Shown here piece after piece: positions 11,567 through 51,369 of a DNA stretch of 60,252 nt. The DNA comes from Bacteroidota bacterium (GTDB taxonomy: Bacteria; Bacteroidota; Bacteroidia; Bacteroidales; Prolixibacteraceae). Where the stretch lies: NCBI GenBank assembly GCA_024278975.1, contig JAJRSD010000079.1:1-60252 (forward strand), given 5' to 3'. Within the stretch, counting starts at the first letter, position 1. Every line of letters begins with the position of its first letter. The position numbers and the translations under genes are program-made. Below the pieces are notes generated by a model. It saw only the letters and a list, made by a program, of their open reading frames with translations, made no database searches and was not told where the DNA came from.

Positions 11567-12121
11567 ATGGTTGATTCGTCGGTTGTTCTTGCAGGACAAA
11601 CACTTGCGTACACTTTTTACACATCGGTTATCATTTTATTGATGCTGTGGTTTGGAATAAAAGTTACGTCAAAAGGAAAAAGCACTAAAGTAAAACCGGG
11701 TGCGTTTTACGCTTTTGTAATCTTTCTGACTGTGTTGGGAGTTTCCCTTCACATTGTCACACTTAACACAATTCCCTGGACATCTCTTGATGTGAACATG
11801 AAAAACATTACGCCTGATCGTACTTTTGATATTACGGTTGAGGATCACGAGTTTAAACTACCATCTAAAACATTAAAAATGGAGGTTGGTGAGATTGTAA
11901 TGTTCAGTGTTGAATCGAAGGACTTGACATACGGATTTGGGTTGTTTCGAAAAGACAACACAATGGTAATGCAAATGCAGGTGGTTCCTGGTCACAGAAA
12001 TGATATTCTTTGGAAATTTGAAAAACCGGGGGTTTACACCATTCGGTCAACCGAGTACTCGGGGCCCAAAGGAATTGGTATGATTCTTAAAGATGCAGTT
12101 GAAGTTGTCGAAAAATTATAA
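11567..12121 (+). CDS. Heme-copper oxidase subunit II-like cupredoxin lacking the CuA site
   Basis: A 184-residue membrane-anchored protein with two hydrophobic segments (about 10-30 and 46-66) and a C-terminal cupredoxin domain facing the periplasm. It aligns with cytochrome oxidase subunit II (FDITVEDHEFKLPSK, VPGHRNDILWKFEKPGVY), but the CuA ligands are gone. The His after SKD is Tyr122, the two Cys of C-x3-C are Ser161 and Ser165, and the following His is Gly169; only Met172 remains. Such subunits cannot take electrons from cytochrome c through CuA. Quinol-oxidising members of the superfamily lost CuA in a similar way. It starts 29 bases before subunit I and is clearly its partner. Confidence 0.8.
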   Translation: MVDSSVVLAGQTLAYTFYTSVIILLMLWFGIKVTSKGKSTKVKPGAFYAFVIFLTVLGVSLHIVTLNTIPWTSLDVNMKNITPDRTFDITVEDHEFKLPSKTLKMEVGEIVMFSVESKDLTYGFGLFRKDNTMVMQMQVVPGHRNDILWKFEKPGVYTIRSTEYSGPKGIGMILKDAVEVVEKL

Positions 12122-12149: not shown

Positions 12150-13769
12150 ATGAGTTTTATACAAACATTAATTTCAGGCGAACAAAAATTATTTAAGTCT
12201 GACAGTCTCACGCAAATGCAAAAAATCACGCTCCGTTTTGTTGTAATGGGGTTGGTTTTCTACGGGTTTGTTGTTATCGAAGGAATGATAATGCGAATCT
12301 ATCAGGTAAAGGTAATTGCAGCAATTGGCGCCGACCAATACTTTGCAATTTTAACGGCCCACCCACTTGTGGGAATATTTGGTTCCACCTATTTAATCGT
12401 ATTTGGGGCATTCCTTTTCCTCGTTCCATTTTTAATGAAAAAACCTATCTGGAGTGTAAAAATGGCCAACTGGACATTTCTCTTAATTTCCATCGGAACA
12501 TTTACTTTCTGGGCTGCCGGATTTATCTCTCACTACGCTCCTCTTTATACATTATACTGGCCACTCCCGGCTGATTTTAGCCAATTCAGTGCAATTGGCG
12601 GAGCAGTATTTATTACCGGCATTGCAGTGGTAATGGTTGGAACCTTTCTTTTTGTAATCAATATTTTCAAAACAATAATGTACACTCCCGAAGGCTGGGA
12701 CAAACAACCTTCCGGAAAGCTTTTGAAATCGGCACTCGGAATTGACGGGTTTACCAATATGTTTGCAAAAAAGGACAAGGAACATCTTGTTTCGTTACCG
12801 GTTGCAGCCATCGCCCGTGGAACAGTTGATGTTGCATTAAATGCGATAATTATACTTTTCACAGGCGTTTTAATTTTGGTTTACATGCTTGGAGAAATTT
12901 TTGGAGTTAGCCTGGAAAAAACGGCTGTTGACGCCTTGCTGTACAAAAACTGGTTTTGGTGGGGACTCGATTTAGTTGCCGATGGACTGGTTCTGGTATT
13001 TGTTGCCGGTACATGGTATCTGCTTGCCACCTTAATTACGGGTAAAAAATTGTTTATGCAAAATATTGCCCGCGCCGCACTTTTGGTCGAATTAATTGTT
13101 TCGTGGACAGTTTGGTCGCACCACTTGCTGGCCGACCAGTCGCAGCCGGTATTCCTGAAAATTGTTTCGGGCGAAATGGTTACTGCTTTCGAGTTAATTA
13201 CACAAGGACTGGCATTTTTTATTGTGCTTGTTACACTCTGGAGTGCCCGTCCATTGAAAATGACTCCTCCTCTGAAATTTTTACTGGGTGGTTTATTAGG
13301 ATTTGCTCTGGCAGTACCTGCCGGAATTATGCAAGCCGACATGGGCTTAAACCGTGTTTTGCATAACACGCAATGGATTATTGGGCCACACGTTCATGTG
13401 GCAATTCTAATCGGTTTATCAATGACACTCTATTCTGCCATCTACTTTTTGTTCCCCATTCTTACAAACGGAGCAAAATTGTACAGCAATAAATTAACCA
13501 ATTTCCATTTCTGGACTCACCTTATTGGAGGTATCGGAATGGGCGCATTTATGGGAATGGCTGGACTAAAAGGTATGTTACGCCGCACGCTCTATTTTGA
13601 TGGAGAATATAGCTTGTATATGATTTTAGCTGCCATTTGCGGAGCATTCTTACTTGTCTCGTTCCTTGCCTTTTTCTTCAACATTGTAATGAGTGTTGGG
13701 CTAAAAGGAGTTATTGGAATATTTACAGGTGCTAAAGAGAAAAAAGAGTTATTGCCTGCTGCTGAATAA
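12150..13769 (+). CDS. Atypical heme-copper oxidase subunit I, probable nitric oxide reductase
   Basis: A 539-residue integral membrane protein of 12 or more helices with the heme-copper oxidase fold. Visible ligands are His71 (TAHPLVGIFG, low-spin heme), the His324-His325 pair (VWSHHLL, second-metal site), and His414 and His416 (GPHVHVAIL, high-spin and low-spin hemes). The helix VI position, normally His in HPEVY of oxidases or HLWVEG of NorB, reads GLDLVADG, so Asp274 replaces the metal-binding His and Asp278 stands where NorB has its catalytic Glu. The oxidase crosslinked Tyr is absent. This is not an ordinary oxygen reductase. An atypical NO reductase of the kind proposed within this superfamily (eNOR/sNOR/gNOR/nNOR) is the best guess; I cannot assign which. 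Confidence 0.75.
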   Translation: MSFIQTLISGEQKLFKSDSLTQMQKITLRFVVMGLVFYGFVVIEGMIMRIYQVKVIAAIGADQYFAILTAHPLVGIFGSTYLIVFGAFLFLVPFLMKKPIWSVKMANWTFLLISIGTFTFWAAGFISHYAPLYTLYWPLPADFSQFSAIGGAVFITGIAVVMVGTFLFVINIFKTIMYTPEGWDKQPSGKLLKSALGIDGFTNMFAKKDKEHLVSLPVAAIARGTVDVALNAIIILFTGVLILVYMLGEIFGVSLEKTAVDALLYKNWFWWGLDLVADGLVLVFVAGTWYLLATLITGKKLFMQNIARAALLVELIVSWTVWSHHLLADQSQPVFLKIVSGEMVTAFELITQGLAFFIVLVTLWSARPLKMTPPLKFLLGGLLGFALAVPAGIMQADMGLNRVLHNTQWIIGPHVHVAILIGLSMTLYSAIYFLFPILTNGAKLYSNKLTNFHFWTHLIGGIGMGAFMGMAGLKGMLRRTLYFDGEYSLYMILAAICGAFLLVSFLAFFFNIVMSVGLKGVIGIFTGAKEKKELLPAAE

Positions 13770-13880: not shown

Positions 13881-15190
13881 CTACTTCTGTCTAAAATAAA
13901 TTTGAATAGGCACACCGGTAAAATCGAAATTATCGCGTATCTGATTTTCGATATACCGTCGGTAAGGTTCTTTAATGTATTGCGGTAAATTAGCAAACAG
14001 TGCAAATGCCGGAGTTCGCGATGGCAACTGTGTTACATATTTAATTTTTATGTATTTCCCCTTAACCGAAGGTGGCGCGTATCTTTCAACAGCCTCTAAA
14101 AGAACTTCATTTAATTCTGAAGTTTTAATTCTGCGCTTACGACTTTCGTGAACATCGATTGCAGTTTCCAAAGCTTTGTGTACTCGTTGTTTTGTTAATG
14201 CCGAAATAAATAAAATTGGCACATCGCTAAACGGAGCCAGTCGGTTCTGAATCTCTTCTGATATTTTTTTGTTGTGTGCGTATCTTTATCAACCAAATCC
14301 CACTTATTTACCAAAATAACAACTCCCTTTTTATTCCTTACAATAAGATTAAAGATAGTTACATCCTGCGCCTCGATACCGCGGGTAGCATCTATTAACA
14401 GCAGACAAACATCAGAGTTTTCGATTGTACGTACCGAGCGTAAAACGGAGTAAAATTCAACATCCTCGTTTACCTTTGCTTTTTTACGTAACCCGGCAGT
14501 ATCAACAATCATAAAGTCGTGACCAAATTTATTATAGTGGGTATGAATCGAGTCGCGTGTAGTTCCGGCAACATCAGTTACAATATTTCTGTCCTCGCCA
14601 ATCAGCGCATTTATAAACGACGATTTACCAACATTTGGCCGACCAACAACCGATAGATGCGGAAGTACAGCATCCACAGCGTCCTCTTCAATATTTGGAA
14701 AACTTTTTACCATTTGGTCGAGCATTTCGCCGGTTCCGCTTCCTGTCATTGACGAGATACAAAATATCTCACCCAACCCAAGTCCGTAAAACTCCTGAGC
14801 ATCAACAATTCTTGCGTTATTATCCACTTTGTTTACAGCAACAACAACATCTTTATTACTTTTTCGCAGTAGTGTTGCAATTGCATCATCCAAATCGGTT
14901 GTGCCTGCTTCAACATCAACAACAAATATTATAACATCGGCCTCGTCGATTGCCAAATGTACCTGTTTGTTAATCTCCGACTCAAACACATCCTCCGAGT
15001 TTACAACGTAACCACCAGTGTCGATAACCGAAAATTCAACACCGTTCCACTCGCCTTTTCCGTAATTCCGGTCGCGGGTAACTCCGGCTGTTTCGTTAAC
15101 AATTGCCTTCCGCTGTTCTATTAATCTGTTAAACAGTGTCGATTTTCCAACATTTGGTCGTCCTACTATTGCTACTATTCTGCTGCTCAT
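13881..15190 (-). CDS. der: Ribosome biogenesis GTPase Der, interrupted by a one-base frameshift
   Basis: Two adjacent frames together encode a complete Der/EngA of about 436 residues. There are two GTPase domains, each with a GRPNVGKS P-loop (residues 10-17 and near 184), NKVD and NKWD base-recognition motifs, and a C-terminal KH-like domain ending in [10 protein letters not shown]. Der is needed for 50S subunit assembly. The frame breaks at seven A on the coding strand (14264-14270 on +). One extra A, or a -1 slip on the in-frame heptamer A AAA AAA, restores ...[16 protein letters not shown]. The total length is exactly one base short. Because the gene is normally essential, a sequencing error, a polymerase or ribosome slip, or a second copy elsewhere must be assumed. 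Confidence 0.9.
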
Positions 15191-23742: not shown

Positions 23743-24647
23743 CTACCCGCCAATTTCAACATCAATTCCAAAAGTTTGGAATATTTTAACTGCACGAGTT
23801 TGTTCAGCTTCCGGTGCTTCTGCCATATCGAATTCGTTATAAACCTCCCCAAGTTTATTGTATTTGTTTTTGGCGATATTGTGGTAAGGAAGCAGATTTA
23901 CTGCCTGTTCCCCGGGAAGTTCCGAAATAAACTCAGCCATTTTTGTAAGCTCATTTTCATCGGAATTTACGTTTTTTATTAGCGGAATGCGGATATTAAT
24001 ATTTGCTTCGATTTCTGCCAAAACCTTTAAATTTTTTAGAATAAGTTGATTGCTGACTCCTGTCCACTTTTTATGTTTTTCGTTATCCAATAATTTTAAA
24101 TCGTATAAAAAAAGGTCAGTATGTTCTGCAACCTCAAGAACAATTTCAGTATCGGCAAAACCTGAAGTATCAACAGTTCGGTGTAAATTTTTATTGCCGC
24201 ACTCTTTAAGCAAATCTATTAAATAATTGTGGTACATTAATGGTTCACCTCCCGAAAAAGTTACTCCACCACCCGAATGTTCAAAATGAACTTTTTCGCG
24301 TTCGATAATTTTCAATATCTCATCAATATCATACAATCTCCCCGACATTTCAATTGCTTTTGTTGGGCAGGCTTCGGCACATTTTCCACATAGTTTACAC
24401 AAATCAAAATCGGTAATAATTCCTTTTTTTGTAAGTGTTAGCGCGTGATTCGGGCAAACCTCAATACAATCTTGCGCACCAATACATTTCGATGCCGTAT
24501 ATAATTTTTGTACCGCCGGAGATTGACTTTCGGGATTGTGGCACCATTTACACGACAACGGACACCCCTTTAAAAAATGGTAATCCGAATTCCGGGACCG
24601 TCGTTTATTGCGTAGCGTTTTATATCGAAAATAAGTGGTTGTTTCAT
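23743..24647 (-). CDS. Radical SAM glycyl-radical-enzyme activase, with a one-base frameshift
   Basis: The complete gene starts at 24647 (MKQPLIFDIKRYAINDGPGI) and runs about 301 residues. After IRITIF the frame hits TAA. One missing T in a run of six (24572-24577 on +) would restore LKGCPLSCKWCHNPES with the radical-SAM C-x3-C-x2-C motif. Downstream come a two-cluster ferredoxin insert (CIGAQDCIEVC, then CKLCGKCAEAC), GGGVTFSGGEP and the SAM barrel, typical of PFL-activase-like enzymes. It would install the glycyl radical on the enzyme encoded at 24859-27318, upstream in the same direction. The length is one base short of a multiple of three. Confidence 0.9.
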
Positions 24648-24725
24648 TGTTTATTTAATAAGCTGTCATTCCTAATTTATCTGTTAAAGGATACAATTTT
24701 TATTAATTGACTTTTGTTTTTAAGA

Positions 24726-24802
24726 CCCTGAAATAAATTCAGGGTGACGTTCTAAATATTACTAAACAATGAGAAGAACGTCATGCTGAATTTATTTCAG
24801 CA
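24726..24802. repeat. Pair of REP-like palindromes in inverted orientation
   Basis: Two small palindromes, ACCCTGAA-N5-TTCAGGGT and TGCTGAA-N5-TTCAGCA, lie head to head with flanking TGACGTTCT and AGAACGTCA. As a whole they form a 26-base inverted repeat (24728-24753 with 24775-24800) around 21 bases. This layout is that of paired REP elements. It sits between the glycyl radical enzyme and its activase and may limit read-through. Confidence 0.7.
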
Positions 24803-24858
24803 TCTCATTGTTATCTATTTATGTGCCCAATAAAATTGAAAATTTTTCGCACCAACAT

Positions 24859-27318
24859 TTAAAATTCTTCATTCTCTGTTCTATCAATTACTTCTTGTTG
24901 CAGGTCGGCGTTCATATCGTTAAAATAGTCGCTGTAACCTGCCATTCGAACCAGTAAATCTTTATAATCTTCGGGGCAGTTTTGCGCTGCCAGAAGTGTT
25001 GCAGTATCAACAATGTTAAATTGAATGTGATGCCCGCCCAAAGTAAAATAACTACGAATTAAGTGTCCAAGTTTTTCAATATCTTTTTCGCGTTTTACAA
25101 GGCTTGGCACAAAACGTAAGTTCAGCAGAGTGCCGCCCGATTTTGTCTGGTCGAGTTTACCCAGCGAGCGAATTACATTTGTAGGTCCGTAAATATCGCA
25201 ACCGTGCGATGGCGAAGTTCCATCGGAAATCGATTTACCGGCAAATCGTCCGTTTGGCATTGCTCCCAACACTTTCCCAAAATAAACATGGCAGGTTGTC
25301 GAAAGCATATTCAGGTGAAACGATTCGCCTTTTGTATTTGGTTTTCCGTCGATGGCAGCAAGTAAATCGTTGTAAACTCGAATTGCAATTTTGTCTGCAT
25401 ATTCATCGTCGTTTCCAAAAAACGGGGTACGATTTATTATTCTCTGTCTCAGTTTTTCGTCTCCTTCAAAATTATTATAAACCGCATTCAGCAAAGTTTC
25501 CATATCTATAGTTTTATCTTCGAAAACATGCTTTTTTAATGCCGAAAGACTGTCGGTAACCGTTCCCAGTCCGGTGCATTGAATGTAATTTGTATTGTAA
25601 CGCGGGCCACCATTATAATAATCTTTTCCCTCAGAAATACAATCGTCTATAACCACAGAAAGGAAAGGTGCAGGCGCATATTTTGCAAACATTTTATCGA
25701 TATAATTACTCACGCTCACTTTCAACTCTACAACATAATTTAGCTGTTTTAAAAATGCTGAATACAGCTCCTCGAAGGTTTTAAGATTTCGCGGATTACC
25801 GGTATCTATTCCTGCTACTTTTCCGGTTAGCGGGTCGATCCCACTGTTCAAAGTTATTTCAAGTATTTTAGGAACATTAAGATATCCGGTCAGTAAATAC
25901 GCCTCCTTTCCAAAAGCTCCAACTTCGATGCAACCGCTGCAACCACCTTCGCGAGCATCTTGCAACAATTTCCCTTGTCGCAGCATTTCCTCGATATAAA
26001 TATCAGGGTTAAAAACCGACGGATAACCGTGCCCCTGCCGAATAACTTTTACAGCTGCATTTAAAAATTTATCCGGAGTTTTTGTGCTGATATGAACAGA
26101 ATTCCCGGGTTGTAAAATGTGCAGCTCTTCAATTATTTCTAAAATTATATAAGAGACTTCACTCACTCCATCAGAACCATCGGATTTTAATCCGCCAATA
26201 TTAATGTTTGTGAAATCGTTAAAAGTACCACTTTCGCGGGCTGTAATTCCAACTTTTGGCGGTGCAGGATGGTTATTAACTTTAATCCAAAAACAGCTTA
26301 TTAACTCTTTTGCTTGGTTGCGGGTTAAAGTTCCGGCGGCAATCTCTTGTTCGTAGAAAGGAGTTAAGTGCTGGTCGAAATGCCCGGGGTTCATTGCATC
26401 CCAACCGTTAAGTTCGGTAATAGTTCCGAGGTGAACAAACCAGTACATCTGAATTGCTTCCCACAAATTTCGGGGGGCGTTTGCAGGAACCCTGCGACAC
26501 ACTTCTGCAATACGATTCAGCTCTTTTATGCGCTGCGTGTTTGTTTCGGAAGCAGCCATTTTTAAAGCTAAATCGGCGTGGCGTTCAGCAAAAACAATAA
26601 CTGCATCGCACGAAATATCCATAGCTTTTAGCTGCTCCAGTTTTTCGGTTGCTTCGGGGTCGTTCAAAAAGTCAAGACTCTTAATATGGTTGTTAATCTC
26701 TTTTTTGAAATCGAGCATTCCTTTTTGATATATTTTTCCGTCGAGGGCAGTGTGTCCTGGAGCACGCTGTTCCATAAATTCTGTAAAAACACCGGCTTCG
26801 TATGCAGCTTGCCACTCTTTCGGAACGTGGCTGAAAATCCGTTCGCGCATGGTTCTGCCGCTCCAATACGGAATTACTTCGCGTTCGTAAATATCAATAT
26901 CTTTTTGCGAAATTGTATATTGTTGCTGGTCGCGTGTGTTTAAAACGTGGAAATCTTCGACACTGTGGCAAGTTAATTCGGGGAAAGTAGGAATCGATTT
27001 TGGAGCTGGACCGCGCTCGCCAACAATCAACTCACCGCTACCAATGTAAATTGTTTTCTGGTTGCAAATTTCCAGAAAATTGAGAGCTCGCATAACCGAC
27101 TCCGAATATTTGCCATAGTTTTCTTTGTAAAATTTCGTGGTTATTAACGCTCTCTCAATCGAAAGTGATTCTTGAGTTTCGACACTTTGTTTGCGTAAAA
27201 GTTGAATGCGTTTATTCATGCCCGGGCCAATGGTTTTTTTAGGAGATTTGTAAAAATTACCCTCGGCGCCGGCTGCTCTTTCGGGAGTTATTGTTGATTG
27301 TATTTCAGCAAAAGTCAT
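24859..27318 (-). CDS. Glycyl radical enzyme, trans-4-hydroxy-L-proline dehydratase-like
   Basis: An 819-residue glycyl radical enzyme. The thiyl cysteine is Cys463 in GGCSGCIEVGAFGKEAY with the base Glu465. The radical glycine is Gly794 in RMAGYSDYF. The region after the active site (LTGYLNVPKILEITLNSG, DPLTGK, GNPRN) resembles hydroxyproline dehydratase (HypD) more than pyruvate formate-lyase, so dehydration of hydroxyproline or a related C-OH substrate is my first choice. An unusual extra Cys460 stands where HypD has Thr. A later start at 27219 (MNKRIQLLRK) would match family N-termini better. It requires anaerobic conditions and the adjacent activase. I see no P5C reductase (proC) next to it. 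Confidence 0.85.
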   Translation of the reverse strand: MTFAEIQSTITPERAAGAEGNFYKSPKKTIGPGMNKRIQLLRKQSVETQESLSIERALITTKFYKENYGKYSESVMRALNFLEICNQKTIYIGSGELIVGERGPAPKSIPTFPELTCHSVEDFHVLNTRDQQQYTISQKDIDIYEREVIPYWSGRTMRERIFSHVPKEWQAAYEAGVFTEFMEQRAPGHTALDGKIYQKGMLDFKKEINNHIKSLDFLNDPEATEKLEQLKAMDISCDAVIVFAERHADLALKMAASETNTQRIKELNRIAEVCRRVPANAPRNLWEAIQMYWFVHLGTITELNGWDAMNPGHFDQHLTPFYEQEIAAGTLTRNQAKELISCFWIKVNNHPAPPKVGITARESGTFNDFTNINIGGLKSDGSDGVSEVSYIILEIIEELHILQPGNSVHISTKTPDKFLNAAVKVIRQGHGYPSVFNPDIYIEEMLRQGKLLQDAREGGCSGCIEVGAFGKEAYLLTGYLNVPKILEITLNSGIDPLTGKVAGIDTGNPRNLKTFEELYSAFLKQLNYVVELKVSVSNYIDKMFAKYAPAPFLSVVIDDCISEGKDYYNGGPRYNTNYIQCTGLGTVTDSLSALKKHVFEDKTIDMETLLNAVYNNFEGDEKLRQRIINRTPFFGNDDEYADKIAIRVYNDLLAAIDGKPNTKGESFHLNMLSTTCHVYFGKVLGAMPNGRFAGKSISDGTSPSHGCDIYGPTNVIRSLGKLDQTKSGGTLLNLRFVPSLVKREKDIEKLGHLIRSYFTLGGHHIQFNIVDTATLLAAQNCPEDYKDLLVRMAGYSDYFNDMNADLQQEVIDRTENEEF

Positions 27319-37334: not shown

Positions 37335-38225
37335 TCAGCAAATGGTTTTACATTTTTCTCCATTCCCTATATCCTCGATCTGAAGAGTAGTGTGGTCGAT
37401 GCCAAAATTATGTTTCAATTTTTCCTGTAGATTTGGCATAAACTGATTTTCGTAACTTTGCTGCATTACCAAATGGGCAGTTAAAGCAACCTGAGTAGTA
37501 CTCATTGCCCAAATGTGTAAATCATGAATATCTTCAACTCCATTCTGCGATAAAAGAAATGTTCGCACATTTTCAAGTTTTATATTTTTGGGTACTGCAT
37601 CTAATGCTAAATCTATTGAATCGGTAAATAACCGCCATGTTCCCCACAGAATTACAAGGATTATTAAAAGGCTCATTGCCGGGTCAATCCATTGAATTTC
37701 GGTAATGTTAATTAATAATCCGGCAATAACAACGCCCAGCGAAACTCCCGCGTCGGCAGCCATATGCAGGAACGCCCCTTTAATATTCAGGTCGTGTTTT
37801 TGCCCTTTCATAAAAAGTAAGGCTGTGATAGTATTTATTATTACACCTATTCCGGCAACAATCATTACCTGAGTACCTGCAACCGGTTCGGGGTTTTTGA
37901 ATTTCCCGATGGCATTCCATGCAATTGCGGCAACTGCTCCAAAAAGTAAAAGTGCATTCAAAATTGAAACGAGAATTGTTGTTTTACGCAGACCGTAAGT
38001 ATATTTCCCTTTTGGCTTTTTTGTTGCCAGCCAAATTGCCATCCATGCAAATATTAAACTCAATACATCGCTTGCATTATGTCCGGCATCTGCTAAAAGT
38101 GCCGAAGAATTTGCCATCAGTCCATAAAAAATTTCAACTGCAACAAAGAGAATATTTAACCCGATACCAATAGAAAATGCTTTTCCATAGGTGTTTAGGT
38201 TTGTATGTTCATGCGAATGAGCCAT
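37335..38225 (-). CDS. CDF family zinc exporter
   Basis: A 296-residue cation diffusion facilitator with six helices. It has a His-rich N-terminus (AHSHEHTN). The transport-site residues are seen in helix 2 as LLADAGHNASD and in helix 5 as HMAADAG, the H/D set of zinc-specific CDF carriers (CzcD/ZitB type). The C-terminal cytoplasmic domain has DLHIWAMS and HTTLQIED. It would move zinc out to the periplasm, where the CzcABC system in this cluster can take over. It is the last gene of the metal locus, 12 bases after the CDF-like gene before it. Confidence 0.9.
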   Translation of the reverse strand: MAHSHEHTNLNTYGKAFSIGIGLNILFVAVEIFYGLMANSSALLADAGHNASDVLSLIFAWMAIWLATKKPKGKYTYGLRKTTILVSILNALLLFGAVAAIAWNAIGKFKNPEPVAGTQVMIVAGIGVIINTITALLFMKGQKHDLNIKGAFLHMAADAGVSLGVVIAGLLINITEIQWIDPAMSLLIILVILWGTWRLFTDSIDLALDAVPKNIKLENVRTFLLSQNGVEDIHDLHIWAMSTTQVALTAHLVMQQSYENQFMPNLQEKLKHNFGIDHTTLQIEDIGNGEKCKTIC

Positions 38226-38237
38226 AATAATTATAAT

Positions 38238-39032
38238 TTATTTTCCCAATTTTAATATTCTGAAAGCACCTCTTACGACAATTAAAAATACAACTGTTCC
38301 AACAATTAAATCGGGGTATTTCGATTGGGTTAGCCAAACAAGTATCCCTGCAACAATAACTCCCGAGTTTATAATTACATCGTTCGATGTAAATATCATA
38401 CTGGCTTTCATGTGCGCCTCGTTGCTTTTCGATTGAAGCATTAAATAAAGACAAACCGAGTTTGCGATTAATGCCAGCACCGATACAATTATCATTGTCC
38501 TGAAATCAGGTACTTCCTGAAAACTGATAAACCTGCGTACTACTTCAATAAGTCCAATAAATGCCAGAGCAAGTTGAAAATAGCCGCTTAATCTTGCCAC
38601 TTTTTTCTTCCGAAATACGGTTGAACCAACTGCCCAAAGACTAAGCCCGTAAACCAACGAATCGGCAAGCATGTCCAACGAATCAGCAACCAGTCCCATT
38701 GATTTTGAAATAATACCGGTGGTGATTTCAATAATAAAAAATGCATAATTGATAATCAATACTGTCCAAAGTAGCTTCGATTGCACAGAACTGTTATCCT
38801 TAAAATCTTTCTGTTCAACAATTTCTGTTGACTGATATTCTGCACCTAAATTTAACTCTTTCAGTCGCTTTTCAATCTCCCGGTTTTTATCGGTATGAAA
38901 AACTGTAAGTTTACGATTTTCGATATCGAAATCAAGTTTTTTAATAATGGAAAGCCCGTCGAGCTTTAACCTGATAAGGTTTTCCTCTGAAGGACAATCC
39001 ATTTTCGATACTATAAAACCGGTTTTATACAT
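38238..39032 (-). CDS. CDF-like cation transporter with N-terminal HMA-like domain
   Basis: A 264-residue protein. Residues 1-75 resemble a heavy-metal-associated domain, but with a single Cys (KMDCPSEENLI) where GMxCxxC is usual. Six helices of the CDF type follow, with VADSLDMLADSLVYG in helix 2 and FTSNDVIINSG in helix 5, so the second site differs from the zinc-type HxxxD of its neighbour. It has no C-terminal cytoplasmic domain. It lies between DUF302 and the zinc CDF gene in one run of minus-strand genes. The metal specificity is probably different from its neighbour's. Confidence 0.8.
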   Translation of the reverse strand: MYKTGFIVSKMDCPSEENLIRLKLDGLSIIKKLDFDIENRKLTVFHTDKNREIEKRLKELNLGAEYQSTEIVEQKDFKDNSSVQSKLLWTVLIINYAFFIIEITTGIISKSMGLVADSLDMLADSLVYGLSLWAVGSTVFRKKKVARLSGYFQLALAFIGLIEVVRRFISFQEVPDFRTMIIVSVLALIANSVCLYLMLQSKSNEAHMKASMIFTSNDVIINSGVIVAGILVWLTQSKYPDLIVGTVVFLIVVRGAFRILKLGK

Positions 39033-39040
39033 TTTGAAAA

Positions 39041-39502
39041 CTAAATATTTTCAAGAGCAAGAATAAATTTGTCAGTAACCTTTTGTGCAACTTTATCGAG
39101 TTCGCTGTTACCGAGCATTTTCATCAACACTGTTGGGTTTACCATTACAATTTCAATGTTGCCATCTCCTTTGTCTTTTACCAACACTTTGCAAGGTAGA
39201 AAAAGCCCAATATTCTCTTCAACCTGTATGGTTTCGTACGCATATTTCGGACTGCAAACGCCCAATATTTTATAAGGGCGCAAATCTACATTGTCTAACT
39301 TCTCTTTGAGTTTTGCATCCATATCAATTTCGGTAATTACACCGAAACCCTGTTTTTTTAACTCGTCTTTTGTTTTTTGAGTAACCTCTTCGAACGAACC
39401 TTTAACGGTTTTGCCAAAGTAATATTCTACACTCTTTTGCGCTGATAATGTTTGAATTGAAATTAAGATTATCAGAATTGAAATTAATTTTACTTTTTTC
39501 AT
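39041..39502 (-). CDS. Secreted DUF302 protein
   Basis: A 153-residue protein with a signal peptide (MKKVKLISILIILISIQTLSA). The DUF302 domain includes TKDELKKQGFGVITEIDM, LGVCSPKYAYETIQ, FLPCKVLV and NPTVLMKML. Two cysteines, one in GVCSP and one in FLPCKV, are placed as in most family members. Role unknown; these proteins often lie near thiol- or metal-stress genes, which fits the cluster. It starts 188 bases after the czcB stop, and the gap contains nothing I recognise. Confidence 0.85.
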   Translation of the reverse strand: MKKVKLISILIILISIQTLSAQKSVEYYFGKTVKGSFEEVTQKTKDELKKQGFGVITEIDMDAKLKEKLDNVDLRPYKILGVCSPKYAYETIQVEENIGLFLPCKVLVKDKGDGNIEIVMVNPTVLMKMLGNSELDKVAQKVTDKFILALENI

Positions 39503-39689
39503 TTTATTTTACTTTTAAATTATACTCTGTTTATTGAAGTTGTTTTAAACGGCAAGTTGTCTAATCTGCCATCTATTTTAAGAATTATATTCTTTGACAT
39601 CAGAACCCGTTTTTACACGAATTGCCTGATTAATATCTGATATATATTATCCCGTCTTCAGGATTTAATGTCATTCCATATTACTGTTT

Positions 39690-41006
39690 TTAATGTTCGT
39701 GCTCGGTCTCTTCTTTCTTCATATCAGCCAATAAGTAATAGGCTGCATTCATCACTATTTGCGTACTCTCAGGTAATGGATTTATCAGCTTAATCTCGGT
39801 ATAACCATCGTCAATACTACCGGTAATTACTTCTACCATACGAAATCCCATATCTGTGTTGTCATTGTGCCCTTCATCATTATCATGTCCGGCATTTTCT
39901 TTATGGTTTTCTCCAGCATCATGATTATGACCGGCTTCTTCTTCATGATGGTTTTCTTCAGCACCGTGGTCATGTACGGCTTCTTCTCCGTGATTGTGCT
40001 CCTCAACTACCTCATTGTCAACAATAAAAATAAAAGATTTTGTCCCCTCTTTAACCAGAGCACCGTTGGGTAATGCGCGGGTATAGTTTTCGTCGGTATG
40101 AATATGCCCCGAGATATACATTCCTGCAATTAAACCGGAGATTTTTTCATTTATTTTTGCGTGAATATGCACAGCCCTTGAGTTTTTCTCAAACTCTTTT
40201 CCTATGGCAAATATTGTTGCTGTTAACTCTTTCTCAGGAATATTTGATACGTTAAAATGAATTTTTTGACCCTCTTTAATAAGGTGAACATCTTGCTCGT
40301 AAACCATAAAATCGGCATGAATTGCACTGTTGTCAGTAATTCCAAAGAGAATATCTTTGGAATCGACGTAAGTTCCAACTTTAATATTTACCTCATTAAT
40401 AAAACCACCGATGGGAGATTTAATGGCAATTGAGTTTGAAATCTCCCCATTTTCAACCTTATCGGGCGATAAATTTAACAACAGCAACCGCGATTTTAAT
40501 CCTTCGTATTTGGCTCTGATTGTATTACGTTCCGATTTTATTTGTTGAAAATCTCTTCCGGCACCCACGTTATTTTCGTACAACTCCTTTTGGCGTTCAT
40601 ACTCTTTTTCTATAAACTCTTGCTGGCTCGAAATTTCAGCAAAATCTTCCTGTAAAGTTATGTAATCGGGATGTTCGAGTATAGCGAGCAACTGGCCTTT
40701 ACTAACTTTATCGCCATGAAATACATTAATCGATTTTACATTACCGCCAATAATCGCCGTAACTTCGGCGCTGCTCGATGGTGGCACTTCTAATTGTCCG
40801 TTTGATTTAACCGCTGTAGTTAAATTCCGCATTTGGAAAACACCCAGTTTTAATTTAAGCGCATCGCGTTGATTTTTATTTAATACCACAACTCCTTCCG
40901 GGCCGTGCTCTTCATGTCCCTCCCCTTCGTTACTATCTTTTTTCTCTGAATTACACGATAACAATGTTGCTACCATGATAAGTGCTAAAAATATTTTTGA
41001 TTTCAT
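39690..41006 (-). CDS. czcB: RND efflux periplasmic adaptor, CzcB/CusB type, with His-rich insert
   Basis: A 438-residue membrane fusion protein. It has a lipoprotein-like signal (ending LLSC), lipoyl/barrel-sandwich halves (GGNVKSINVFHGDKVSKGQ; IAIKSPIGGFINEVNIKVG), a coiled-coil hairpin between them (about 125-170) and a beta-barrel region. Residues about 330-390 are a His/Glu/Asp-rich stretch with many H-x-H and HNHGEE units, likely a metal-buffering loop. It links the CzcA pump to its outer membrane channel. The czcA gene lies 18 bases upstream, so they share an operon. Confidence 0.92.
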   Translation of the reverse strand: MKSKIFLALIMVATLLSCNSEKKDSNEGEGHEEHGPEGVVVLNKNQRDALKLKLGVFQMRNLTTAVKSNGQLEVPPSSSAEVTAIIGGNVKSINVFHGDKVSKGQLLAILEHPDYITLQEDFAEISSQQEFIEKEYERQKELYENNVGAGRDFQQIKSERNTIRAKYEGLKSRLLLLNLSPDKVENGEISNSIAIKSPIGGFINEVNIKVGTYVDSKDILFGITDNSAIHADFMVYEQDVHLIKEGQKIHFNVSNIPEKELTATIFAIGKEFEKNSRAVHIHAKINEKISGLIAGMYISGHIHTDENYTRALPNGALVKEGTKSFIFIVDNEVVEEHNHGEEAVHDHGAEENHHEEEAGHNHDAGENHKENAGHDNDEGHNDNTDMGFRMVEVITGSIDDGYTEIKLINPLPESTQIVMNAAYYLLADMKKEETEHEH

Positions 41007-41024
41007 TTTAATATGATTTTTTGA

Positions 41025-44000
41025 TTATTTACCTGTTAAGTATTTTAATTGAGCCGACAGTTCGAGATATGTGGCCTGCTGAATAAGAAATTTTTGGTTT
41101 ACTTTAATGGCAACATCCATGTTTTGTATAAACTGAACATAGTCGATGCTGCCGAGTTTATAAGCAATATTCGATGCCTGAATTTGTTCGGTGGCAAGTG
41201 GCAAAGCCTCTTTCCGGTAATAGTCTATTACCTCTTTTAAAATAAGGTATCGGCTAAACAACTGGTTGAATTCCGCATTTATCTCCAGCTTTTTTTGTTT
41301 ATACTTCTGTTCGGCAATTGCATATTCAAATTTCGATGATTTTGCCCTGCCCGATTGAGGAAAGAATAACAACGGGATTTTTATTCCTGCTTGCCAGCTA
41401 TTAAAACCCGATACACCATCAACAGCCTGCACCGCATATCCAACATCTATTTTAGGCCAAAAATTTGCACGCTGTGCTTTCCACGATGATTCAGCAACAA
41501 TGGTCTGGCTTGAATAATAATCCAGCACAGGACTCTCCGAAAACGAATCGTTTACCGATATCGTTGAAAAAAGACTCTGTTCAGGAACATTGGCATCGAT
41601 ATCGAATTCGACCGGCGATAACAGGTATTGATTAAGTGTTTGTAATGCAGCAAAATAGTTGCTTTTAGCCATCTTAATATTTACCTCCAACTCTTTGTAC
41701 TGAGTTGATGCAGACAAATATTCGATTTTAGATGTTGCCTGTGTTTTTAGTCTTATTTCTGCTGCTTTCTGGAAATTCGCATAAACACTATCGAGTTGCT
41801 GAAAAAGCTGCCACATTTGCTTTGCATAAGTTGCTCTGTAAAAAGCAACACTTACATCGCGCACCAGCGAATATTCCGTTAAACGCTGCCCCGATATTGC
41901 TTTTTCGGTACGGGCATTTGTAAGGTTGTTTTTTGCAGGTATCCCAAACAAATCAATATCTTCCTGCACAAAACCTATTTTGTTTTGAATGCCTTTCAGT
42001 CCGTTGCCAACTTCTTCTGTACCCGTATAAACCGAGGTAGTTCCAAAATCGTAAGCAACACCTTTTAATGCTTTTTGTTTTTCAATTTCGAATTCTGCTG
42101 CTTTAATTGAAGGGTAATTTTGTTTTGCACTATCGATGGCTTGTTGCAACGTTATCAAATTTTCCTGAGCGTTACTTTTTCCTGAGATTGCAACACCTCC
42201 AACAATTAACAAAACAGATAAAACGGCAGTGGTTAATTTTGGTGTTTTAATTCTCTTTTTACCCAATTCAACCCATCGGTACAATATTGGCAGAACCACT
42301 AATGTGAGCAGAGTGGAAGTTAACATACCGCCAATTACCACAGTTGCCAGCGGACGTTGAACCTCTGCACCGGCCGAAGCAGAAACGGCCATTGGCAGGA
42401 ATCCTAAAATATCGGTTGATGCTGTTAATAATATAGGTCGTATTCGCCTGATTGACCCTTTTTTAATAATATCGTCAATGTGTAGTTTGCCTTCAGCTTT
42501 CATCTCATTAAATCCGGAAATGAGAACCAATCCATTTAACACTGCAACACCAAATAAAACTATAAATCCAACTCCTGCCGAAATACTAAACGGCATGTCA
42601 CGCAAATATAAAGAGAACACTCCACCAACAGCGGCGAAAGGTACGGCAACATAAATCATTAGTGTTTGCTTAAACGATTTTACTGCAAAAAATACCAGCA
42701 TAAAAATCAAAGCCAGGGCAAGTGGCACCACCAGCGACAATCGTTTCGATGCCCTTTCAAGATTTTCGAAAGCACCGCCATATCTGATGTAGTAGCCTGT
42801 TGGTAACTCCAGTTTTTTATCTAAAGTTGCCTGTATTTCATTTACGAGCGATTTTACGTCTCTGCCTTCAACATTAATACCCACATAAGTACGGCGGTTG
42901 GTATTGTCGCGGCTAATTTGCATAGGACCCGGCTGGTAGCTTATATTGGCAACTTCTTTTAATGGTATTTGACTACCATCGGGCAGGTAAACAAATAAGT
43001 TGCGTATGTCGTCGATACTTGTACGGTGCTGCTCGTCTAACCTTACAACAAGGTCGAACATTTTTTCACCTTCGTAAATAACTCCTGCAACACCACCACT
43101 AAAAGCAGTTTCGATTATGGTATTAAGTTCTTTTATATTTAAACCATACCGGCCTAATTTATTTCGGTTATAATGAACCGTTATTTGTGGTAATCCGCGT
43201 GTGGCTTCGGCTTTTACACCTGCAATACCATCAATACCTACTATCAATCCGGCAATTTCTTCAGCTTTATTTGCCAGAATATCTAAATCGTCGCCATAGA
43301 GTTTAACCGCCACATCTTCGCGGATACCTGTTAAAAGTTCATTAAAACGCATCTCGATAGGCTGCGTAAATTCGAAATTGATACCGGGTAAAACAGCAAC
43401 TTTTGCTCTCACCTGATTTATCAAATCTTCTTTCGATTCAGCTTTTGTCCATTGGTCTTGCGGGGTTAATATCACAAAAATATCGGCAATATCAATTGGC
43501 ATTGGGTCTGTTGGCAAATCGGCAACTCCAATTCTACTTTGAATACTTTCTATTTCATCAGGAAAGTTCTCAATTACTATTTGTTCCAGGCGAGTTGAGG
43601 CATTTTTCACTTCCGTCAATGAGGTTCCAGGTTTTAAAAATGCCTGAAACGCAAAATCGCCTTCGTCAAGTTGTGGAATGAATTCGGCTCCCATACGGGA
43701 AAATATAAAACCGCCTGATAGTAATAGTATCAAAGCAATTGCAATAACAATCCGTCCTCTTTTTATCGACCAGATTATTACAGGTTCGTAAACTCTTTCC
43801 AATGCAACGATTACCTTGTCGCCCCAACTTTTTTTAGCAGTTTTTGGTGGTTGAAGAAATGTGGAAACCATCATTGGAATATAGGTGAGACAAAGTATTA
43901 ACACACCTAAAACCGCAAAACCAAATGTCATTGCCATTGGTATAAACATTTTTCCTTCAACGCCTTGCAGAGCCAAAACAGGAATAAATACTATAAGTAT

Positions 44001-45365
44001 AATTACCTGCCCAAAAAAGGCAGAATTCATCATTTTACTCGATGCAGTGTAAGCCAGTTCGTTTCGTTTTTGGGTATTGAGTTTTGTGCCAATAAGATTT
44101 TTACTGTGTAGGTAAAAAATCATACTCTCAACTATAATTACTGCCCCATCAACTAATATTCCAAAGTCGATTGCACCCAGGCTCATTAGATTTGCCCAAA
44201 CGCCAAAAAATCTCATCATAATAAAAGCAAAGAGCAGTGCCAAAGGAATTGTTGAAGCCACAATTAAGCCACCTCTCAGATTTCCAAGAAAAATAACTAA
44301 AATGAAAATTACAATTAAAGCTCCCAACGAAAGGTTTTCGGCAACTGTTGATGTGGTGCTTTTTATGAGTTTGCTACGGTCGAGAAACGGTTTTATTTTT
44401 ACACCTTCGGGTAACGATTTTTCGATTAAAGCCATTCGCTCTTTAACCAGTTTTATTACGTCGTTGGAATTTTCGCCTTTTAACATCATCACTATTCCAC
44501 CAACAGCATCGCCCTTCCCGTTTTTTGTAAATGCGCCATATTGTACAAAACTCCCAAATTTAACTTCAGCAACATCTCTTATAAAAACCGGCTGACCGTC
44601 GATATTGGCAACATGGGTGTTTTTAATATCATCGATAGAACGCATTAAACCTTCGCCACGAATAAAATTAGCCTGATAATTTTTCTCGATGTAAGCACCT
44701 CCCGTATTCTGATTATTCTCTTCGAGAGCATCAAAAACATTAGTTATGGTAAGTCCCATACTCCTGAGCCTGTCGGGATTTACAGCAACTTCGTACTGCT
44801 TGCCTCTGCCACCAAAAGTATTAACCTCAACAACACCGGGAAGCATCGCCATTTGGCGTTTTACAATCCAGTCTTGCATGGTGCGAAGTTCCATGTCGTT
44901 GTACACCGTGTCGTAACCGGGCTGAACTTCGAGAGTATATTGGTAAATCTCGCCCAAACCTGTACTGATTGGAGCCATAAATGGTTCGCCAAATCCTTTC
45001 GGGATTTTTTCTTTTATCTCTACCAAGGCTTCGCTTACCAACTGCCGGGGGAGATATGTTCCCGCACTCTCTTTGAAAACAATGGTTACTACCGAAAGAC
45101 CAAACCGCGAAACACTTCTTATTTCGGTAACATCGGGGAGATTTGCAACGGCAAGTTCTACCTGATAAGTTACAAATTGCTCAATGTCTTCGGTACCCAA
45201 ATTGGGTGCGGTTGTAATTACTAATACCTGATTGTTTGTAATATCGGGTAGTGCATCGAGTGGCACTTTGGTCATGGAATATATTCCGCCAATAATCAAG
45301 CCTATTGTCATAAGCCAAATCAGTGCCTTGTTTTTTATTGAAAAAGATATAATACTGTTAATCAT
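41025..45365 (-). CDS. czcA: CzcA RND heavy-metal pump fused to a CzcC/TolC-type channel
   Basis: A 1446-residue fusion. Residues 1 to about 1040 form a complete HME-type RND pump with 12 helices. It has the CzcA-type proton relay DFGILVDGAVIIVE in helix 4 (around residue 400), PMAMTFGFAVLGVLILCLTY and the large porter domains. Near residue 1050 a hydrophobic segment ending in SNAQ precedes an outer membrane factor domain (about 1070-1446, with TolC-like helices TEKAISGQRLTEYSLVRDV and a SQAL-type end). Such fusions are known from Bacteroidota metal pumps. The helix 4 residues are of the divalent (zinc/cobalt/cadmium) type rather than the copper type. Confidence 0.9.
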   Translation of the reverse strand: MINSIISFSIKNKALIWLMTIGLIIGGIYSMTKVPLDALPDITNNQVLVITTAPNLGTEDIEQFVTYQVELAVANLPDVTEIRSVSRFGLSVVTIVFKESAGTYLPRQLVSEALVEIKEKIPKGFGEPFMAPISTGLGEIYQYTLEVQPGYDTVYNDMELRTMQDWIVKRQMAMLPGVVEVNTFGGRGKQYEVAVNPDRLRSMGLTITNVFDALEENNQNTGGAYIEKNYQANFIRGEGLMRSIDDIKNTHVANIDGQPVFIRDVAEVKFGSFVQYGAFTKNGKGDAVGGIVMMLKGENSNDVIKLVKERMALIEKSLPEGVKIKPFLDRSKLIKSTTSTVAENLSLGALIVIFILVIFLGNLRGGLIVASTIPLALLFAFIMMRFFGVWANLMSLGAIDFGILVDGAVIIVESMIFYLHSKNLIGTKLNTQKRNELAYTASSKMMNSAFFGQVIILIVFIPVLALQGVEGKMFIPMAMTFGFAVLGVLILCLTYIPMMVSTFLQPPKTAKKSWGDKVIVALERVYEPVIIWSIKRGRIVIAIALILLLSGGFIFSRMGAEFIPQLDEGDFAFQAFLKPGTSLTEVKNASTRLEQIVIENFPDEIESIQSRIGVADLPTDPMPIDIADIFVILTPQDQWTKAESKEDLINQVRAKVAVLPGINFEFTQPIEMRFNELLTGIREDVAVKLYGDDLDILANKAEEIAGLIVGIDGIAGVKAEATRGLPQITVHYNRNKLGRYGLNIKELNTIIETAFSGGVAGVIYEGEKMFDLVVRLDEQHRTSIDDIRNLFVYLPDGSQIPLKEVANISYQPGPMQISRDNTNRRTYVGINVEGRDVKSLVNEIQATLDKKLELPTGYYIRYGGAFENLERASKRLSLVVPLALALIFMLVFFAVKSFKQTLMIYVAVPFAAVGGVFSLYLRDMPFSISAGVGFIVLFGVAVLNGLVLISGFNEMKAEGKLHIDDIIKKGSIRRIRPILLTASTDILGFLPMAVSASAGAEVQRPLATVVIGGMLTSTLLTLVVLPILYRWVELGKKRIKTPKLTTAVLSVLLIVGGVAISGKSNAQENLITLQQAIDSAKQNYPSIKAAEFEIEKQKALKGVAYDFGTTSVYTGTEEVGNGLKGIQNKIGFVQEDIDLFGIPAKNNLTNARTEKAISGQRLTEYSLVRDVSVAFYRATYAKQMWQLFQQLDSVYANFQKAAEIRLKTQATSKIEYLSASTQYKELEVNIKMAKSNYFAALQTLNQYLLSPVEFDIDANVPEQSLFSTISVNDSFSESPVLDYYSSQTIVAESSWKAQRANFWPKIDVGYAVQAVDGVSGFNSWQAGIKIPLLFFPQSGRAKSSKFEYAIAEQKYKQKKLEINAEFNQLFSRYLILKEVIDYYRKEALPLATEQIQASNIAYKLGSIDYVQFIQNMDVAIKVNQKFLIQQATYLELSAQLKYLTGK

Positions 45366-47668: not shown

Positions 47669-50600
47669 TTACAATTCTTCCTCTTTTTTATAAATAGGGA
47701 TTTCAAGAAAGAAAGTTGTTCCTTTGCCAAGTTCGGTTTCGAACCATATTCGCCCTGCAAAATTTTCGACCAGATTTTTTACTATTGCTAATCCAAGTCC
47801 CATTCCGCTGGTTTTAGTTGTAAAACTGGGACTAAATAATTTGTCGCGTAATTCAACGGGGATTCCCGAACCATTGTCTTTAACAGCAATAATTGCCTTA
47901 TTTTTTTTCTTTTCGAGCCAAATCTTAATCTCTCCCATTTGATCGTCGGGGACAGATTGAATTCCATTCCTGATTAGATTTATCACCGCCCTAAATAGTT
48001 GCTCACGGTCGGCATTAACTTCTATCTTTTTTAGTTTGTTTGCACTAAATTCAATATTTGCCCGATTGTGGGTTTCGTATAAATCTATTACTTTTTGTAA
48101 ATGTTCAGCCAAATTAAATACCTGATTACGTGCCTTTGGTATTTTTGCGAAATTTGAGAACTCCGTTGCAATATTCGACAAACTATCTATTTGCTCAATC
48201 AAAGTTCCGGTTACACGTTCCAGATATTTATTATATACTTCATCTTTCCCTTTGCACGTTGCAAATGCTGAATGCTTAGCTTCATTGGAGTGAGAGGGTT
48301 TTTTATTTCGTGCGCTACTTGTTTTGCCATTTCGCGCCACGCCGACTCTCGTTCCGATCGGGCGAGCAAATCAGTACTCACTGCCAATTCATCTACCTTT
48401 TTATTGTACTCTTTTACCAGACTGCCAATTTCGTCGTTACGGTTATAATGAATGGGATCGTTGTGTTTTCCCAACTCTATTTTCTGAAGATTTTCCTGAA
48501 TAGCAACCAGTGGCCTCGTAATTGAATTGGCAATAAAAACAGCCGCAATAATACTTACTAAAAACAGCAAAACATATAAATTAATAAATGCCACTACAAA
48601 TGTTGTAATCTCCTGGCTGTAATTGTCTTGGTTGATGAAATATGGTAGATTTATAAAACCCAGATAATCGCTATAATTATTTATAATTGGTTTATATGCT
48701 GATAAATACGACAACTGTCCGATCTCCTCGGTTTCGGAATAACTTGTCTGAAAATTTTGAAAAATTTCGCTGTACGCACGGGCATTCATTCGCGTAGAGA
48801 TTAACCCGGCCTCAAAAATCTCGCCTCTCGATGAGGCTATTAAATTGCCGTTTGCACCGTAAATATTTATATCTGTCCGGAATATATTCGAAAGTTTAGA
48901 GAGTTCGCGGTGCAGCCAATTTTTTAGCGAGTCGGTAATTTCAACCTTATCTTCCAACCGCATATCAATCTCCTCGGTTATCGACTTCATTTTTTCGTTT
49001 AAGTCGTTTTCGTGTTTTAAACGGTAGTCTTCAACATTATACGTAATGGTTACCAAAGCAACACCCAGTAACGAAATAAAAACAATGGAAATTATTGCTG
49101 CCTGAATTTTAAATTTCAAATCGAAGATTAGCTTGCGGGCGCGAATTGTACGACTACCAATAAGAAGCAAAATAATTACACTTATAAAGTAGAACACAAA
49201 CAGGTACGGAAACGAAATTAAATACTCGGTGAGAGTAAATAACGATCGCGAAACAATTATATAATTATGCTCGCGTGTGTGATAAATAAGATGCTCGCGA
49301 CCGTGCCATTTTTTGTATGTAAATTCTCTGTTTTCGTATTTCGCATTTACGTCAGCACTTAAATAGGTATCTATATGAAAATTGTAATCGTAATCGCCAA
49401 ACTTATCGGTTAATTCTCCACCATAATATTTAGCGTAATCAAACTTTTTATAATTCTCCGAACGGGCAATCGATTTATCAATTAGAAGTTCGGGAAACCC
49501 AATTCCATCAAAAAGCAAATCAGAATCTAAGTCGATATAAATGGTTACGCCGCCACTATTCTGGAAAAATGGGAAACTGATTTTTCCGGTGTACGATATC
49601 CGTCCATTCATATTATCCATAAAATAGAAATCGGTTCCCGGTATTCTATCTCCCTGAGAACTAATTAACTCATCCATAAATGGCATGCAGGAAACGTTCC
49701 TTCCTTCAGGTTCGTAAAACAGGCTGTCAGTTTTTTCGCAAACGTAAACTTTAATAAGGTATTTTCTGAAATAGCCATTGAAATAGACCTTTTCGATGTA
49801 CTCTTCAATATCTTCCTCTTGTAGCAGTAAACTATAAATTGCCGCGTCGTTACTTAATTGATATTGAATGTTCGTTAAAAATTCTTCGGCTGCCGGGTCG
49901 CGTTCGGTTACCAGATTTAACGCCAGCAATTTCTGAACACCCCTCTCTTTCACACTAATTGTGCTGTAAAAAACTGCCAGCGAATAAACAGAAGCAATGG
50001 AAACAAAAACTATAAGGTAACTTAAAGTGAAATTTTGTAAATATTTTCTACTTAATATGCAGCCAAATATTGCAGCAAAAACAAACAATATCAGAACTGA
50101 GATTGATATTTTACCGATGGCAATAAATTGCACCACTCCAAAAAACAGTGCAATAGAAACAATCACACCCAATAATTGAAGGAAACTAAAATCGTGGCGT
50201 GCCTCTTCAGTTATACGGGTTGTAAAATATAGTATTGAAAATAGAATCAGCCCCACAGAAAAAATGGCAAATGCACTTTGAACCGTAATTTCGATAATTT
50301 TATTTAACGAAAACGATATTGTTGAATTTAAAATAAGCTGCTCGATAAAATAGTTTGCCAGCAGGTAAAGGCTTGCACTAAATAGCAGCAACAAAACCGC
50401 AACTATTTTTCGGGGGAGTTTTGAGTTTTCGTGAAGTTGTTTAATATTTAAACTTACACCAAAGTTATAAACCCAAAACAGGAAAAACAGTGTTAACAAA
50501 AAGAAATCGCCCAACGATGGCAACCAATTATTTATTGCAAAATAGTCGGGGCTAAAAACCCGTAAAAAGAAAAATAACCTCGGAATATTAAAAATCAGAT

Positions 50601-51369
50601 GCAGCCAGTAAACAATAAAAAGTGCCGTGGCAAGTGCCAGAAGTTTCAAAATGAAGGGTGCTTTCGATTCAGTAAATTCTTTTCTGAAATAAAATAGCAG
50701 AATCAGTAATCCTAAAAAATAGATAATTCCCGGGAAATAAAGCTGGTCTTTGGTACATAAAAATTGTCCGTTTGGAACCAATGTAAATAGAAATTCGCCG
50801 TTGATGTTTTTCACCTGAAAATCTTTCGACTCGTCAGTTTTTGTCTCGCTAATTTCAAATTCATCAGGCAAGTCATAACCTTCAAAAAATACATTCCGGA
50901 GGTATTTATTTTCGAAATTGTAGTTGCTTTTCAACAAGTGTAATCCTAAAATTACAAACTCATTTTTCACAACTTTATCGGCAAGATAATATCCGTTTGG
51001 AAGCAGTACCAAACCGTGTGTATCTTCTATTTCGTCAGTAGTATTAAAAAACGCAACCGAGCGGTTCGACCAGTAAACTAATTCGCCATTTTGAAATACT
51101 AAATATCCGAAACCCGGTTCGCTTAAATGTAAACCCGACTCATTTATTGCTTCACTAATATTTTCATTATCAGTAGATTTAATAACTTCTAAAATGTTGT
51201 TTAAATGAGTTATTAATACTTTTTCGTTATTAATTAATTCTGTTTCAAAATTTTCTACAAGATGAGTTTCGGGATGTTTTTTTAGAAGCCCATTTTCGAT
51301 AACAGCCGCAACAACAATAAAACATATTGCAATAATCAGGTAACTATATTTGTTAAATTTTAGTAACAT
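47669..51369 (-). CDS. Large NtrY-like sensor histidine kinase, with a one-base frameshift
   Basis: Two frames together encode about 1233 residues. The N-terminal part has many hydrophobic segments (about 8-25, 215-500 and 735-790) and two extracytoplasmic regions. A HAMP segment (NSITRPLVAIQENL) comes near residue 950, then the H-box VAHEIKNPLTP with the phosphoryl-accepting His, the N-box NLIRNGIQSV, DNGSGIP and GMGLGLAIV. The frame breaks at RAKGK: the coding strand reads G GGA AAG (CTTTCCC at 48244-48250 on +). A -1 shift gives KGKDEVYNKYLERV, the correct HisKA helix. As sequenced, the first frame stops before the ATPase domain. It starts 3 bases after rlmH, so the two are an operon. Confidence 0.88.

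Follow-up and report, generated by a model that had tools for sequence, protein, structure and literature searches.

In gNOR, a proposed class of heme–copper NO reductases, the metal at the active site is held by two histidines and one aspartate. Published surveys describe the wider setting of this class. Table A4 of PMC8756737 gives gNOR an aspartate as active-site residue and no proton channels (0); the same source lists the class in Sulfurimonas, Sulfurovum and Persephonella and predicts a cupredoxin second subunit for such NO reductases. gNOR is described as quinone-oxidizing and non-electrogenic (PMC8906906), and is named in Methylomirabilis (PMC6094997). By a count of 2024, cNOR, qNOR, bNOR and eNOR are characterized, and sNOR, gNOR and nNOR are proposed and related to the B type (PMC11388526). 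A limited literature search found no statement on the gNOR active site beyond Table A4 of PMC8756737. Here, we report a gene pair that, with reasonable confidence, encodes a putative gNOR-type NO reductase bound to the membrane.

The window, that is, the whole 60,252-nucleotide stretch of DNA analyzed, belongs to a 4.65-Mb genome in 115 contigs (99.6% complete). Three plus-strand genes lie head to tail in it and encode an Rrf2-type regulator, subunit II and subunit I (Table 1). The reading frame of subunit I and the residues assigned to it in the initial annotation were confirmed, and the protein covers the PF00115 profile almost from end to end (positions 1–435 of 436). Its nearest relatives come from MAGs labelled Draconibacterium and Prolixibacteraceae and are 86–94% identical.

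Table 1. Positions in the window of the three genes and of the codons for the active-site residues
Feature	Positions	Strand	Basis
Rrf2-family regulator, 137 aa	11087..11500	+	PF02082, 9.4e-30; C91, C98 and C104 are candidate Fe–S cluster ligands
Subunit II, cupredoxin domain and two long N-terminal helices (likely transmembrane)	11567..12121	+	Model, alignment
Subunit I, heme–copper superfamily catalytic subunit, 539 aa	12150..13769	+	PF00115, 1.7e-52
Asp274 codon, likeliest substitute for the lost helix VI metal ligand	12969..12971	+	Conservation, spacing, alignments
Asp278 codon, position of oxidase Tyr or NorB Glu provided that Asp274 aligns with the His	12981..12983	+	Conservation, alignment
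His324–His325 codons, helix VII metal ligands	13119..13124	+	Conservation, alignment
His414–Val–His416 codons, helix X heme ligands	13389..13397	+	Conservation, alignment

Elsewhere in the contig, several minus-strand loci were read by eye. A Der/EngA-like GTPase gene is divided between two overlapping frames (13881–14222 and 14195–15190) in a frameshift-like manner; such a gene is usually essential, and the split suggests an assembly indel. A sensor histidine kinase, apparently also in two overlapping frames (47669–48340 and 48211–51369), provides a second sign of an indel. The region 37335–45365 carries a metal efflux cluster: a CzcB-like protein is accompanied by two CDF-like transporters and by a 1446-aa frame in which a CusA-like RND pump seems to be joined to a TolC-like outer membrane protein, and a glycyl radical enzyme adjoins its probable activating enzyme at 23743–27318.

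Residues 268–279 of subunit I read WFWWGLDLVADG, and H71, the HH pair at 324–325, H414 and H416 are present. Five of the six usual heme–copper histidines are kept, with none in helix VI. Conservation was assessed in 81 sequences, comprising subunit I of the window and the best 80 of 203 relatives in genome contigs, which are 75–94% identical to it; no pair in the set falls below 73% identity, so the conservation seen is that of a close family. H71, D274, D278, H324, H325, H405, H414, H416 and H453 are all invariant in 81/81 sequences, consistent with the initial description of the other ligand sites (H71, H324–H325, H414 and H416) as intact. No histidine occurs at aligned positions 258–323 in any of the 81 sequences, and between positions 214 and 323 histidine is found only at 249, 253 and 257 (16, 9 and 15 sequences, respectively). 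Judged from these sequences, the helix VI histidine has for certain been lost in the subunit I family, and, because none of the 81 has a histidine at 258–323, this loss is independent of the exact alignment. The three-histidine CuB site of the A-, B- and C-type oxygen reductases is not found in subunit I, its third histidine being missing. In oxidases, the cross-link tyrosine lies in helix VI in the A and B types and in helix VII in the C type. Neither position has a tyrosine here, the residues that we take to be equivalent being D278 in helix VI and, for the C-type position in helix VII, S318 (MAFFT localpair). The structure model of subunit I adopts the heme–copper superfamily fold but is weak at the site itself, where the pLDDT is 56–61 throughout helix VI and drops to 51 for the HH pair. 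The invariance of the site residues, together with the missing helix VI histidine and the missing cross-link tyrosine, argues for the gNOR-type reading.

Which residue takes the place of the lost histidine depends on the alignment. With MAFFT, D274 falls in the histidine column of 59/59 references in two of three modes, and L273 does so in the third. Scoring without gaps in the helix VI region, the histidine column being omitted, favored D274 against the qNOR references (12/12) and against most A/B-type references (15/21, with L273 in 6/21); against the C-type references it favored L273 in 19/26, D274 in 5/26 and A277 in 2/26. Hhalign places D278 opposite the A/B histidine by way of a gap, and D274 or L273, according to mode, opposite that of the C type. 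Of the 59 references, 21 have a spacing of 49 between the helix VI histidine and the HH pair, 26 a spacing of 50 and 12 a spacing of 51; counted to H324, D274 gives 50, L273 would give 51 and D278 would give 46. Since leucine cannot bind a metal, D274 is the best candidate, and these comparisons make Asp274 the likely metal ligand in place of the helix VI histidine. If D274 stands at the histidine, D278 would be taken as the counterpart of the oxidase tyrosine and the NorB glutamate; lying four residues beyond D274, it is aligned by MAFFT with the qNOR glutamate in two of three modes and with the A/B tyrosine in one of three. The proposal of the initial annotation that Asp274 replaces the metal-binding histidine holds in that the histidine is gone and D274 is the best candidate, but the alignments lie one residue apart and the model has low confidence in this part. 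The lack of a unanimous register, seen in the L273 preference of most C-type references and of one MAFFT mode and in the hhalign pairing of D278 with the A/B types, weakens the gNOR-type reading.

Specific features of the second subunit bear on the electron donor. Subunit II is found in 79/80 related loci, in two of which it is cut by a contig end; in the only exception (L024), the contig end leaves 40 bases ahead of subunit I. The subunit II model (pLDDT 82) pairs two long helices with a cupredoxin domain, and its best Foldseek matches are chain B of ubiquinol oxidase from E. coli and the CuA domain from Thermus; the CoxB profile match is far under its cut-off. Subunit II was aligned with 12 subunits II picked for an intact CuA motif, all from loci of references grouped as B type. 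In this alignment, Y122 and G169 occupy positions of the histidine ligands and S161 and S165 those of the cysteine ligands, and these four residues are near invariant among the subunit II relatives; E163 and M172 are kept. The earlier statement that CuA is absent is therefore borne out against these 12 proteins. On this alignment, subunit II is of the B-type kind with its CuA ligands replaced, as in quinol oxidases. CyoA, subunit II of E. coli cytochrome bo3, likewise lacks the CuA ligands and has a cupredoxin domain, whereas subunit II here is shorter (184 aa compared with about 260 in the listed chains) and the subunit I partner of CyoA belongs to another branch. The missing CuA ligands argue against cytochrome c as the direct donor and would favor quinol. 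Loss of CuA and of one metal ligand might also be expected of a heme protein that is catalytically dead or has a sensory role, but the remaining heme and metal histidines and both aspartates are invariant in 81/81 sequences and the gene pair is kept in 79/80 loci, which makes such a protein very improbable.

The kinship of the family was examined in a quick 62-row maximum-likelihood tree, which omitted 9 of the 26 C-type rows; one short sequence (L152) was left out of the alignments, and no reference ORF was obtained from L098 or L126. The family forms a single clade (SH-aLRT 100) outside the A-, B- and C-type oxidases and qNOR. It groups with the A and B types at 93, under the program's mark of 95, with the order among the three unsettled, and its stem has 1.7 changes per column, long branches making its exact place unsure. 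Hhalign scores of the family are 221.7 against A, 191.9 against B and 186.3 against C (A against B gives 255.3 for scale), and no significant match to qNOR was found (prob 13.7). Among library profiles, subunit I matches COX1; its matches to CtaD, ccoN and two further oxidase models are far under their cut-offs. Given these COX1, CtaD and ccoN matches, annotation may label subunit I a cytochrome oxidase. The only other PF00115 protein found in the source genome is of the cbb3 type and falls in the C-type clade of the tree. Loci L102–L111, L113 and L114 encode short C-type-like proteins (about 461–476 aa) in which a tyrosine precedes HH by six residues and helix X contains GHVHMGTMGW. That oxygen reductases give the closest profiles and that the superfamily fold is shared would suit a divergent oxygen reductase; this is improbable, as the third histidine ligand, the cross-link tyrosine at both positions and the CuA ligands are all missing and the family lies outside the A, B and C clades. 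The initial view of a non-canonical heme–copper enzyme is upheld in that, by the quick tree, the family is in none of the branches of oxygen reductases compared.

The family is carried by 10 of 296 genomes sampled from the phylum, the source genome included, with eight nearly full-length copies, one divided between two contigs and one a fragment; the next match among the candidates scored in this sample reaches 60 bits. Two other carriers (G298 and G297) served as seeds for samples of 149 and 151 genomes; in each sample only the seed genome carries the family, the next best matches reaching 67 and 66 bits. Over these 296 + 149 + 151 genomes, whole copies score 1012–1087 bits, one copy is split over two contigs, one is a fragment of 138 bits and the others listed reach at most 67 bits, so that the subunit I family looks like a discrete one. 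This sharp gap, with no intermediate to a named class in the sampled genomes, and the stem of the family in the tree could indicate a distinct, unnamed heme–copper family other than gNOR that reduces NO or other small nitrogen or oxygen species at a carboxylate-rich metal site. We regard this as unlikely, since the residues and subunit make-up fit the published gNOR traits, and the gap rests on samples drawn without aiming at the phyla reported for gNOR and, among the 296 genomes, on the candidates that were scored.

Comparison with the described classes favors gNOR. The aspartate active-site residue in helix VI is found as D278 in 81/81 sequences, a match that rests on the register with D274 at the histidine, and the cupredoxin-fold second subunit of the B-type kind is found in the subunit II model and its Foldseek matches; quinol rather than cytochrome c as donor would be a further likeness, read here from the loss of CuA. 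By contrast, the host phylum is absent from the taxon list in Table A4 of PMC8756737. A B-type-kind subunit II without CuA ligands, a clade of its own and agreement with the published traits all argue for the gNOR-type reading, and membership in gNOR is probable on these traits. With the A- and B-type oxygen reductases (aa3, ba3), the pair shares the fold, the heme ligands, two metal histidines and the kind of subunit II, but lacks the third histidine, the cross-link tyrosine and the CuA ligands. With cNOR and qNOR (NorB), it shares a carboxylate at +4 of helix VI, yet the qNORs compared retain the helix VI histidine and HLWVE, and subunit I is distant from qNOR in tree and profile. Three other identities were rejected: cNOR or qNOR, as helix VI has no HLWVE (present in 12 qNORs) and the cytochrome c-like domain of qNOR NorB is missing; eNOR, for which a glutamine active-site residue is expected (PMC8756737) and D278 is found; and sNOR, for which Table A4 of the same source gives asparagine where D278 is found. 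Putative NO dismutases also lose one metal histidine (to Asn) and the glutamate (to Gln), but are described as relatives of qNOR (PMC3413370), to which subunit I has no significant match and from which it lies far in the tree; an enzyme of this kind is hardly to be expected here. The gNOR class is already in print, so the class is not new, and the gene pair is most likely an ordinary member of a class that has seen little testing. The overall interpretation first given to the locus is partly supported and comes close to the one favored here: it stands as to a non-canonical enzyme with no CuA and gNOR-like features, and a metal-binding Asp274, a quinol donor and NO as substrate are putative.

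The gene order extends to the regulator, a relative of which is found upstream in 50/80 loci, 3–130 bases before subunit II, with some loci ending short upstream. C91, C98, C104 and H107 are present in 51/51 regulator sequences. The regulator had been called NsrR-like, a label that fits only loosely; it is of the Rrf2 type with three invariant cysteines, but scores 41.7 bits against the cut-off of 182 of the NCBIfam NsrR model (PRK11014). Clustering of frames of at least 90 aa revealed no other recurrent flanking gene in more than 11/80 loci. A small same-strand membrane protein lies near subunit II in 4/80 loci (in L059 at 346–801, 152 aa, and in three others); by eye, the L059 protein resembles the first helices of a heme–copper subunit I.

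Nitrogen-cycle genes were compared between 40 carrier handles (9 of the 10 phylum-sample carriers and 31 of the 80 loci) and a set of 40 other genomes taken from the 296; G082 and L034 are the same genome, leaving 39 carriers, and G263, with a 94-residue fragment, was excluded. NrfA-type PF02335 is found in 15/39 carriers compared with 4/40 comparison genomes (Fisher p=0.004) and NosZ over its cut-off in 4/39 compared with 16/40 (p=0.004), contrasts that may reflect ancestry or gaps, the comparison genomes being unmatched for kinship and many carriers being MAGs of unstated completeness. In the same unmatched sets, a cNOR or qNOR domain over cut-off occurs in 12/39 carriers and 5/40 comparison genomes (p=0.06), leaving 27/39 carriers that show none; NirK occurs in 1/39 and 4/40 (p=0.36), and Hcp in 6/39 and 6/40 (p=1.0). 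The source genome has an NrfA match, and none of NosZ, NirK, cNOR, qNOR and Hcp exceeds its cut-off there. The NrfA match, the cbb3-type protein as the only other heme–copper protein found and the commoner NrfA among carriers argue for the gNOR-type reading; the rarity of NosZ and NirK and the cNOR/qNOR-type domain in 12/39 carriers weaken it. With NosZ and NirK rarer in carriers, the family does not travel with denitrification genes. Together with the NrfA matches, this points to nitrite ammonifiers that remove NO rather than complete denitrifiers. Nitrate-respiring Prolixibacter strains are described as forming ammonium, with NO named as a possible further product (PMC8368055).

For the gNOR-type enzyme, we infer the donor, metal, substrate and role as follows. 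From general knowledge of the superfamily, we take H71 and H416 to hold the low-spin heme, H414 the high-spin heme, and H324 and H325 the metal. Quinol would give electrons, without a CuA center, to the low-spin heme, from which they would pass on to the high-spin heme. A non-heme metal, perhaps iron, would lie beside the latter, held by the two histidines and a carboxylate, most likely that of Asp274. At this heme–metal site, two NO molecules would be joined to N2O, with Asp278 acting like the NorB glutamate. The adjoining regulator probably senses NO or redox stress via an Fe–S cluster, and the enzyme would probably serve NO removal during nitrite ammonification rather than full denitrification.

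The gene pair might instead represent a class separate from gNOR, with the metal on two histidines and one aspartate and a second aspartate beside it, that removes NO in nitrite-ammonifying anaerobes and releases N2O, a reading that we consider doubtful. If it were true, N2O release would be overlooked by gene surveys, most carriers (27/39) having no cNOR or qNOR domain. For the gNOR-type enzyme that we favor, gNOR was still proposed and not characterized in 2024 (PMC11388526). Small and conserved, and carried by a genome that has NrfA and in which no cNOR or qNOR was found, the gene pair offers a clean place to test N2O formation by such enzymes, and it also bears on whether a carboxylate can replace histidine on the second metal.
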